32,438 bases of DNA from Alistipes sp. (GTDB lineage Bacteria > Bacteroidota > Bacteroidia > Bacteroidales > Rikenellaceae), in assembly GCA_017558115.1 (NCBI GenBank), contig JAFYWG010000033.1, positions 1-32,438 on the forward strand, in the 5' to 3' direction. Numbering within the stretch: position 1 is the stretch's first letter; each line of letters opens with the position of its first letter. The notes under the pieces are model-generated. The model had not been told where the DNA came from and searched no databases. It worked only from the letters and a program-made list of their open reading frames with translations. A program made the position numbers and the translations under genes. Positions 20,400-22,982 of the stretch are shown here, piece after piece.

Positions 20400-21140
20400 T
20401 TACTCCTCTTCGCCCTCGTCCTCGTCAGACTCGGCCATTGTAGTGTATACGTTGGTTACATCGTCATCCTCCTCGAGGTGCTCGATAAGCTTGTTAACAG
20501 CCTCACGCTCCTCAGGAGTAAGCTCCTTAGTGTCGGTAGGAACACGTACTGCCTCACCCGATACGAGCTCGTAGCCCTTCTCCTCGATCCATGTCTGAAT
20601 TTGACCGAATGACTCGTATGCAGCATATACTGTTACCTCACCCTCCTCAGCGTAGAACTCATCAACACCGAAGTCGATCATCTCAAGCTCCATCTCCTCG
20701 AAGTCAGCACCCTCAGTAGGCTTGAACTTAAATACGCACTTGTGCTCGAACATGAAGCCCACAGAGCCAGAAGTACCGAGTGTACCACCATACTTGTTGA
20801 AGTACATACGAACAGATGCTACTGTACGGTTTGTGTTGTCGGTAGCTGTCTCAACCAATACGGCGATACCGTGAGGACCATAACCCTCATAGATCATCTC
20901 CTTGTAATCTGCGGCATCCTTATCTGTTGCACGCTTGATAGCACGCTCCACGTTCTCCTTAGGCATGTTCTCAGCCTTAGCGTTCTGGATAAGAAGACGG
21001 AGGCGGAGGTTAGACGAGGGATCTGGACCCGATGCCTTAACGGCCATCTCAATCTCCTTACCGATCTTAGTAAATACACGCGCCATGTGTCCCCAGCGCT
21101 TCATCTTTCTCGCCTTGCGATACTCAAATGCTCTTCCCAT
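20400..21140 (-). CDS. YebC/PmpR family (TACO1-like) protein
   Basis: 246 residues starting MGRAFEYRKARKMKRWGHMARVFTKIGKEI, the family's standard opening. The conserved PDPSSNLRLRLLIQNAKAENMPKENVERAI segment follows, with the YEGYGPHGIAVLVE motif near the middle. The C-terminal tail is very acidic (MAESDEDEGEEE). The family includes transcription factors and ribosome-associated factors that help translation of proline-rich stretches; which role applies here cannot be read. It is the first gene of a two-gene unit with ileS. Confidence 0.93.
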   Translation of the reverse strand: MGRAFEYRKARKMKRWGHMARVFTKIGKEIEMAVKASGPDPSSNLRLRLLIQNAKAENMPKENVERAIKRATDKDAADYKEMIYEGYGPHGIAVLVETATDNTNRTVASVRMYFNKYGGTLGTSGSVGFMFEHKCVFKFKPTEGADFEEMELEMIDFGVDEFYAEEGEVTVYAAYESFGQIQTWIEEKGYELVSGEAVRVPTDTKELTPEEREAVNKLIEHLEEDDDVTNVYTTMAESDEDEGEEE

Positions 21141-21306: not shown

Positions 21307-21454
21307 GTTGCTATTTGAGCCAAAATCCTATAAAATCTCAAAATTCACTAAAAATGCCACCTCGACCCATACACCTCCAACCCCCTCTCAGACAGCGTTA
21401 TAAGCGTGATTTGACAAAATTTTGCAAAAATTATTGAAATTTTTTAATAAAATA

Positions 21455-21486
21455 TTTGCATAATTAAAAAATACCCCCTACCTTTG
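21455..21486 (+). promoter_or_regulatory. Strong consensus promoter of the predicted small RNA
   Basis: TTTG (21455-21458), a 20-nt spacer and TACCTTTG (21479-21486): both boxes and the spacing match the Bacteroidota housekeeping promoter. No open frame starts in the next 150 nt that looks like a gene, so it points to an untranslated RNA starting near 21492. Confidence 0.8.
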
Positions 21487-21491
21487 CAGCG

Positions 21492-21634
21492 AAGTTTTAA
21501 GGTTCATTTAGGTTAGTAGTTTTAGGTTGGAGAGGCCAATCGATGGGTATGACAAAGGTCGCACACTTGTAAACCAAGAGGTTGCGAGATGAGAGCTTTG
21601 TCATAGACACCCTTCGGTTGCCTCATTTTTTTGT
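21492..21634 (+). ncRNA. Predicted structured small RNA, about 140 nt
   Basis: After the consensus promoter come about 40 nt with four AGGTT words (consensus TTTAGGTT), then one long imperfect hairpin. The outer stem pairs 21532-21548 with 21609-21624 (one bulge, one T-T mismatch, one wobble). A 4-nt bulge (21605-21608) separates it from a perfect 9-bp helix (21549-21557 with 21596-21604). Inner helices are 21559-21563 with 21583-21587 and 21566-21569 with 21575-21578. A run of seven T follows, giving an intrinsic terminator. It is not tRNA, tmRNA or RNase P, and lacks the SRP apical motif. A 6S-like or regulatory RNA is possible; I cannot name a family. Leader attenuation of the glycosyltransferase is an alternative. 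Confidence 0.7.
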
Positions 21635-21702
21635 CCTTTTTCGAAGTAACTTTTAAGAGTTTGGACTGTATCACTACAATCTTCATCACCACTCACCGCA
21701 CA

Positions 21703-21824: not shown

Positions 21825-22982
21825 ATGAAACGTAGCATTACCATAGGCTTCGACGCGCGATATGCAATGACCGACCACGAGGAGTTCGGTGCATATAGTC
21901 GTCTCGTTATCGAAGCGATGGCTCACGCCGCACCGCGATACACCTATTTCCGCGCCTACGCACCCCTACGTGCCCCCTATGCCCCATATAACAACATCGA
22001 GAGAGTACACAACATTGAGACCATGGAACCCGATGGTGCTATATGGCGTAAGCTACGCCTACCTTGGCGTATATGGCGCATTGCCAACGACCTACATAAC
22101 GGCAACGTAGAGCTATACCACGGCCTCGCAGAGCACATACCCATGCGCCTCGAGAAGCACAACATACGCAGCGTGGTTACGATCCACAACATGGAGTTCC
22201 TCTACGACAACACCTTCACCAACTCCCCCGAACACCTTGCACACCGCATCTACATGGGTCGCATGCTACATCGTGTAGACCGCATCGTAGCAGTTAGCGA
22301 GTGCGTTAAGCGCGACATTACCAAGCACTTCCGTATATATCCCGAGAAGGTAGACGTAGTATATCCCGGCGTGGCAAAACGCTTTACGGAGGAGCTTAGC
22401 GAGAGTTACATCGAGGATGTACGCACACGCCTCGACCTTCCGGAGCGCTTCCTACTCAGCGTGGGCATGCAGCTCGAGCGCCGCTCTATGATTAAAGTAG
22501 TCAACATACTACCTCTACTCGACGGCGATATGCACTACGTCATCGTGGGCCGCAACACATGGCACACCTCGAGGCTTCAGCGCGCAGCGCGCGACCTCGG
22601 CGTGGCAGACCGCCTACACATCATCGAACACGTAGACGATGAGGATATGCCAGCAGTATACCGCATGGCAAGCATACATATAAACCTCTCGCGCTACGAG
22701 GGCTTCGCTACAAACATTGCCGAGGCGATGGCCGTGGGCACACCCGTTATCACCACACGCTCTTCGAGCATGGAGGAGGTGGCAGATGGCGCTGCCATGT
22801 ACATAAACCCCAACAACCGCGACGAACTTGTAGATGCCATACGCACGCTTTCGAAGGAGTGCGAACTACGCGACGTGCTTATAAACCTCGGCAAGCGACA
22901 TGTTTCGCGCTTTAGACCCGAGGTTGTGGCATACAACCTAATAAATAGCTACCGCCGTCTCGACATCGACATACGCGGATAG
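21825..22982 (+). CDS. Glycosyltransferase family 4 protein
   Basis: 385 residues with a GT-B layout. An N-terminal acceptor half (IGFDARYAMTDHEEFGAYSR near the start, ELYHGLAEHIPMR near 100) is followed by VVTIHNMEF and IVAVSECVKRDI, then a C-terminal donor half starting near FLLSVGMQLERRSM. The donor-site pair of glutamates is Glu292 and Glu300 in SRYEGFATNIAEAM; the usual Gly after EGF is Ala. It probably transfers a sugar from a nucleotide donor to a surface glycan or lipid, on the cytoplasmic side. No other glycan genes sit next to it, so the product is unknown. It is a single-gene unit with its own promoter. Confidence 0.88.
   Translation: MKRSITIGFDARYAMTDHEEFGAYSRLVIEAMAHAAPRYTYFRAYAPLRAPYAPYNNIERVHNIETMEPDGAIWRKLRLPWRIWRIANDLHNGNVELYHGLAEHIPMRLEKHNIRSVVTIHNMEFLYDNTFTNSPEHLAHRIYMGRMLHRVDRIVAVSECVKRDITKHFRIYPEKVDVVYPGVAKRFTEELSESYIEDVRTRLDLPERFLLSVGMQLERRSMIKVVNILPLLDGDMHYVIVGRNTWHTSRLQRAARDLGVADRLHIIEHVDDEDMPAVYRMASIHINLSRYEGFATNIAEAMAVGTPVITTRSSSMEEVADGAAMYINPNNRDELVDAIRTLSKECELRDVLINLGKRHVSRFRPEVVAYNLINSYRRLDIDIRG

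Follow-up and report, generated by a model that had tools for sequence, protein, structure and literature searches.

A predicted small regulatory RNA gene with a near-invariant unstructured leader in Alistipes and related Rikenellaceae

The intergenic stretch that separates a YebC-like gene from a glycosyltransferase-like gene in the window, that is, the whole stretch of Alistipes sp. DNA analysed (32,438 nucleotides), very probably encodes a small regulatory RNA. Judged by sequence comparison, this RNA belongs to a small-RNA family of the Rikenellaceae with no match in the copy of Rfam searched. Its most conserved part is the unstructured leader (positions 21491 to 21530), not the hairpin, a feature overlooked in the earlier note on this DNA. 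Comparison of the relatives reveals a conserved gene unit with an unstructured, near-invariant leader, a covarying 3′ fold and a terminator-like end, from which we infer transcription, base pairing, a target and its repression. We consider it probable that positions 21479 to 21632 specify a trans-acting small RNA of ~140 nt, in which the leader most likely pairs with mRNA and the 3′ domain would terminate and protect the transcript.

The locus and its predicted transcript

The promoter proposed in the earlier note is borne out, with TTTG and TACCTTTG separated by 20 nt, and the 93-nt hairpin, its 9-bp upper helix and the seven T that follow were likewise recovered. The features of the locus are:

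20400 to 21140, minus strand: YebC-like gene, name read from the translation
21455 to 21458, plus strand: TTTG, −33 element of a predicted sigma-ABfr-type promoter, from the sequence
21479 to 21486, plus strand: TACCTTTG, predicted −7 element, 20 nt after TTTG, from the sequence
21491 to 21530, plus strand: unstructured 5′ leader GAAGTTTTAAGGTTCATTTAGGTTAGTAGTTTTAGGTTGG, proposed pairing region, from conservation and fold
21532 to 21624, plus strand: 3′ structured domain, 93 nt, from fold and compensated pairs
21532 to 21536 with 21620 to 21624, plus strand: helix P1
21538 to 21543 with 21614 to 21619, and 21545 to 21548 with 21609 to 21612, plus strand: helix P2
21549 to 21557 with 21596 to 21604, plus strand: helix P3, 9 bp, AUGACAAAG/CUUUGUCAU, with the upper stem enclosed
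21626 to 21632, plus strand: seven T after the hairpin, predicted intrinsic terminator, from the sequence
21825 to 22982, plus strand: glycosyltransferase-like gene, name read from the translation

The hairpin is predicted to fold at −46.6 kcal/mol, compared to −24.3 ± 3.3 kcal/mol for its shuffles (z = −6.73; 0/200 as stable), which upholds the claim that its pairing goes beyond chance, while the whole predicted transcript gives a fold z of −4.73. The leader of the window folds at only −1.7 kcal/mol, with an unpaired centroid.

As the earlier note had supposed, the RNA could not be matched to a known type. No Rfam family reached its gathering score in the whole window, and at E-values up to 10 the region from 21400 to 21700 gave just three unrelated chance matches. 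ARAGORN identified neither a tRNA nor a tmRNA in the window, the SRP and RNase P family models were without a match in it, and Rfam searches of 20 relatives' loci returned five tRNAs and nothing else. A 6S RNA was rejected as a candidate, as no Rfam 6S model matches within the window; the genome search with RF01685 (6S) matched no control, and its genus-level outcome is thus uninformative.

Conservation of the leader and distribution of the family

A 211-base query matches 34/61 genomes, including 32 of the 37 genomes of the same genus (the window's own among them); the other two, from different families, are weak matches and extend over the promoter or 24 bases only. The five same-genus genomes that lack a match are 72-83% complete. 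The matches have the promoter and leader in common, but not the hairpin. At least 120 stretches in genome contigs carry the leader pattern, and the matches listed are all titled Alistipes, Tidjanibacter or Rikenellaceae. No exact match to this pattern occurs in viral contigs, nor does any match spanning 80% of the query in phages and plasmids.

Among 144 distinct copies the 35-nt leader is identical in 94 and carries one extra T in 39 more, although 109 of the 144 come from loci picked by an exact leader pattern. The other 35, mostly derived from a similarity search, comprise 23 identical leaders, nine with the extra T and three with differences in T-run length or in one base. The −33 element is also retained across the 144 copies (T 56%, T 99%, T 87%, G 85%), and the −7 element in most of them is TATCTTTG or TACCTTTG. 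The promoter-like boxes and terminator that accompany the RNA in most relatives thereby support the earlier reading of this region as a small RNA gene.

A 17-base leader core with two free positions is present in 80/120 family genomes, 31/32 same-genus genomes and 11/22 genera, its exact form being missing from the remaining 40 genomes and 11 genera; the reversed control pattern has three sites among the 120 genomes. Both free positions are A in 112/113 listed sites (counted by hand). There are at most three exact core sites in any of the 120 genomes, and the genome of the window (85% complete) has one. Of 37 core sites from 30 same-genus loci, 34 are preceded by 16 bases, not part of the search pattern, that depart from the consensus in T-run length at most; two of the remaining three contain one substitution, while in L303 ~65 extra bases split the halves of the leader. 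A run of at least five T lies within 140 bases of the core in 28/37 sites and further on in six, with none seen in three (hand count).

In the wider order, a 22-base leader probe searched with up to three mismatches against 393 genomes is exact in 5/5 family genomes. Outside the family it finds 56 sites (hand count) in 44/388 genomes, fewer than the reversed control, and just one of these, in an other-family genome that is 68% complete, has a single mismatch. Similarly, a 16-base core yields six sites in 247 genomes, namely five in the family and this outlier (L219), against four for the control. The outlier (minus strand, 1501; G230:C109) lies just past the 3′ end of a DnaK-like reading frame, with a terminator-like hairpin directly after it, and may be either a 3′UTR-derived relative or a binning artefact.

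Several deviating leaders can be observed within the family. Repeated UUAGGUU units occur within the leader, and a 14-base unit, GGTTAGTAGTTTTA, is found in tandem in L118 (1136), at G435:C1:1285274 and 1285288, and at G488:C21:17151 and 17165. Variants with A-to-G changes are found in L007 and in paralogues in L232, L235 and L237. The variant leader in the latter three loci, which belong to two other genera of the family (L232 at 912; L235, minus strand, at 1031; L237, minus strand, at 1026), is AAGGTTTCTTCATTTATTTAAGTTTGGGTTAGTAGTTTTGGG; the L237 variant begins AAAGTTTC. This element is followed by a terminator-like hairpin, while no promoter was seen by eye.

The 3′ domain and the place of the window copy

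The part downstream of the leader varies. Around 95 of the 144 copies carry a three-way junction or long hairpin and ~42 a plain terminator hairpin, with seven undecided, a split moved from 96/41/7 by L063, which was sorted as junction type and yet is a plain hairpin by eye. The junction form consists of P1, P2 and the arms P3 and P4, with conserved junction letters (UAA, GAAU) and a GUGCU loop. In seven Tidjanibacter copies the terminator directly precedes a tRNA-Leu gene, and in some copies the T-run appears only after a further hairpin. That the leader is constant while the downstream part changes supports the view of the leader as the working part.

Alignment A1 and the covariance model R1 derived from it were made with 51 of 62 non-redundant junction-type copies, the window copy and ten others being omitted by the analyst's choice, and the leader is not included in R1. 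In A1, pairing at the 24 pairs is 92.1% standard, and both-side changes amount to 200 cells, compared to 61.8 ± 9.0 in shuffles (0/500 as high) and at most 57 when the pairing is slid by one to three columns. R1 matches 31/61 genomes, all of the same genus (31/37), many of which are training members. On 23 further loci, some of which may be training records, it finds 20 on the right strand with at least 46 bits and one more, weakly, on the opposite strand. Furthermore, seven of the ten left-out junction copies are found on the right strand (40-74 bits), while L166 is matched weakly (16 bits), L139 on the opposite strand only, and L057 not at all. An insertion of ~80 bases lies in the junction domain of L328 (1519-1697), for which R1 still gives 64.7 bits.

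R1 does not match the window, even at E-values up to 10, and also misses the nearest relatives of the window copy (L057 and L168). The window copy is thus tied to the family by its leader, its promoter and its close relatives. Long hairpins (window, L168, L057), copies that add a second arm (L139, L166) and clear junctions (L002, L059, L128) constitute a graded series, and the window copy together with seven relatives, eight sequences picked by hand, shows compensation in 10/30 predicted pairs. Taken with the changes in A1, the compensatory helix changes among homologues on which the earlier note had staked its proposal are present. The window copy is, on this comparison, a divergent variant of the family, and in our reading its hairpin probably derives from the junction form.

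Additional copies or parts of copies occur beside some of the genes. A second 3′ domain lacking leader and promoter is found in three genomes (G003:C40:340800-340892, G029:C2:101148-101239 and G030:C2:35050-35137; loci L017, L020 and L016), ~195-460 bases past the full gene and partial in two of them. Their arrangement resembles a duplication of the 3′ end through insertion of a small element. Plain-hairpin and junction copies also stand in tandem, ~320-460 bases apart, in L014, L019, L022, L304, L306, L322, L326 and L327, and L304 contains a third copy 823 bases further off.

The leaderless second domains, together with the terminator-like end, could be taken to indicate that the locus is nothing more than an intergenic repeat or a strong terminator and has no function by itself. 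This is very unlikely, as the RNA comes with promoter-like boxes of its own and a leader that is better conserved than its hairpin, and a terminator needs no near-invariant leader. We consider it more improbable still, to the point of being barely credible, that the RNA belongs to a mobile element or marks an integration site. The partial 3′-end duplications in G003, G029 and G030 would fit such an origin, whereas the low number of exact core sites per genome and the viral, phage and plasmid searches described above count against it.

Neighbouring genes, target searches and mode of action

The neighbourhoods of the 144 copies were compared over 3 kb in each direction. The yebC neighbour that the earlier note had expected in homologous regions occurs in only 5/144 neighbourhoods, that of the window included. 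Glycosyltransferase matches number 27 (L064 and L086 being counted twice), of which eight lie downstream of the RNA on the same strand, 11 are divergent and eight lie upstream on the same strand. Their identity ranges from 80% down to 33%, and given the low values some of these neighbours may be other glycosyltransferases; both orientations also occur among matches with at least 57% identity (L168 and L139 versus L057). Were the RNA a cis-acting leader or attenuator that controls the glycosyltransferase gene (21825-22982), this would account for its place directly before that gene on the same strand, seen in the window and seven other copies. The 19 divergent and upstream matches speak against this reading, as do the T-run, which would terminate the RNA, and a separate promoter-like TATCTTTG preceding the glycosyltransferase gene. 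The variable orientation makes a fixed cis role unlikely and favours action in trans, and we regard the attenuator as highly improbable.

Under the trans-acting reading that we prefer, the RNA would be transcribed from its own promoter to ~140 nt, and the 5′ leader (21491-21530) would remain single-stranded and do the work, most likely by base pairing close to the start codons of one or a few mRNAs, with repression of the target as the outcome. The structured 3′ domain would terminate transcription and protect the RNA. A frozen unstructured leader on a changing scaffold, with promoter boxes and a terminator, has the appearance of a base-pairing small RNA, and the A-to-G changes in leader variants would, by forming G-U pairs, still permit pairing with the same target, which lends the proposal weak support. 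The 35 contiguous conserved bases exceed the length of a typical seed, and conservation of this extent would also fit protein binding.

Target prediction covered ~17% of the genome of the window and part of two others. A long antisense target was rejected, since sites complementary to 20 bases with up to three mismatches were in no excess over the reversed control in 31 genomes (one extra site versus three in 19 same-genus genomes, six versus 15 in 12 others); the one extra site in the window's own genome (G000:C14) has three mismatches, against none for the control. Predicted pairing with 257 start regions of this genome equalled that of shuffled leaders (−14.06 versus −13.99 ± 0.38). Upstream of 153 genes in the window's genome, AACCTAAA ranked first among 168 words of the same composition and was tied first for 446 genes of relatives, while CTTAAAAC had rank 1/420 in the window's genome and rank 12 in relatives. 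In fresh samples, AACCTAAA was found in 3/182 start regions of G020 (rank 3/168) and 0/153 of G003 (rank 76), and CTTAAAAC in 0/182 (rank 100/420) and 2/153 (rank 9), respectively. Generic start-region pairing was dropped on account of this failure in G020 and G003. Start regions containing 7-10-base words complementary to the leader were in no excess over dinucleotide shuffles in three genomes, the sole excess arising in a control set, the post-gene regions of G020, at 10 bases (6/300 shuffles as high). Word sums exceeded those of the reversed sequence but stayed within the range of the shuffles (81 to 985 of 1000 as high). Envelope and lipoprotein genes, rejected as a target class, were not enriched (one-sided p = 0.92), a crude signal pattern having marked 53/257 genes. 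Three matches in the window's genome exceed the SusC cut-off.

An RRM protein (PF00076) was detected in 0/23 same-genus genomes, while 8/14 other-family genomes were positive and the Bacteroides control matched, and Hfq was detected in 0/13 genomes, nine of them of the same genus. This leaves no known chaperone; mRNA pairing, if real, proceeds without an RRM protein or Hfq, or via another helper.

The main rival to mRNA pairing is protein binding by the leader, in which the RNA would sequester or guide an RNA-binding protein without pairing to mRNA, following the CsrB-like or 6S-like logic. We judge this a possible, though less probable, explanation. The near-invariance of an unstructured 35 nt with repeated UUAGGUU units, the negative target searches and the similar conservation of the junction residues and GUGCU loop in the three-way-junction form would all suit a protein partner. 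The two candidate partners sought, however, are both absent (RRM protein in 23/23 genus genomes, Hfq in 9/9), and the A-to-G variants that keep pairing would alter a protein site, a weak argument against it.

The preferred mRNA-pairing reading has parallels in Bacteroides thetaiotaomicron. Passages of PMC11697453 describe FopS as paralogous sRNAs with a canonical sigma-ABfr promoter, a single-stranded conserved 5′ stretch and a terminator hairpin, present in 12-15 copies per genome, with the RRM protein RbpB as partner and susC start regions as targets. The plain-hairpin form of the Alistipes RNA shares this layout at the level of sequence and fold. It differs in that no genome has more than three exact core sites, rather than 12-15, and in the three-way junction carried by many copies, the comparison being one of described layout and not of seed letters; the Rfam searches gave no match to it. 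Given the absence of the RRM protein from the host genus (23/23 genomes), this is not the FopS-RbpB circuit. GibS, described in passages of PMC7366714 as a ~145-nt intergenic RNA of B. thetaiotaomicron with an unstructured conserved 5′ part that pairs around start codons, resembles the Alistipes RNA, by description and not by sequence, in its intergenic location, similar length and unstructured conserved 5′ part, whereas the host family is different.

Within the open-access literature searched on RNAs of Alistipes and Rikenellaceae, no description of a small RNA gene was found. Passages of a stool small-RNA sequencing study name Alistipes species only as community members. PMC8040213 reports 3161 numbered intergenic structured RNA candidates from human microbiomes; the sole Alistipes passage in its main text, which was the part compared, deals with a candidate of 49 bp that lies upstream of ribosomal protein L20, and the present family may sit among the 3161 under a number.

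A more speculative and rather unlikely extension of the mRNA-pairing proposal is that the family places a 35-nt seed, near-frozen across much of the Rikenellaceae, on a fast-evolving scaffold. In Alistipes this scaffold would have become the three-way junction, whose conserved residues (UAA, GAAU) and GUGCU loop may respond to a ligand or protein by turning the seed on or off, with no known chaperone involved. If true, this would constitute a trans-acting small RNA that carries its own receptor.

Alistipes and related bacteria are common in the gut. The widespread occurrence of a near-frozen leader in a genus without Hfq (9/9) or an RRM protein (23/23) makes small-RNA action that uses no known chaperone directly testable, and the predicted RNA offers a handle on post-transcriptional control in the Rikenellaceae.
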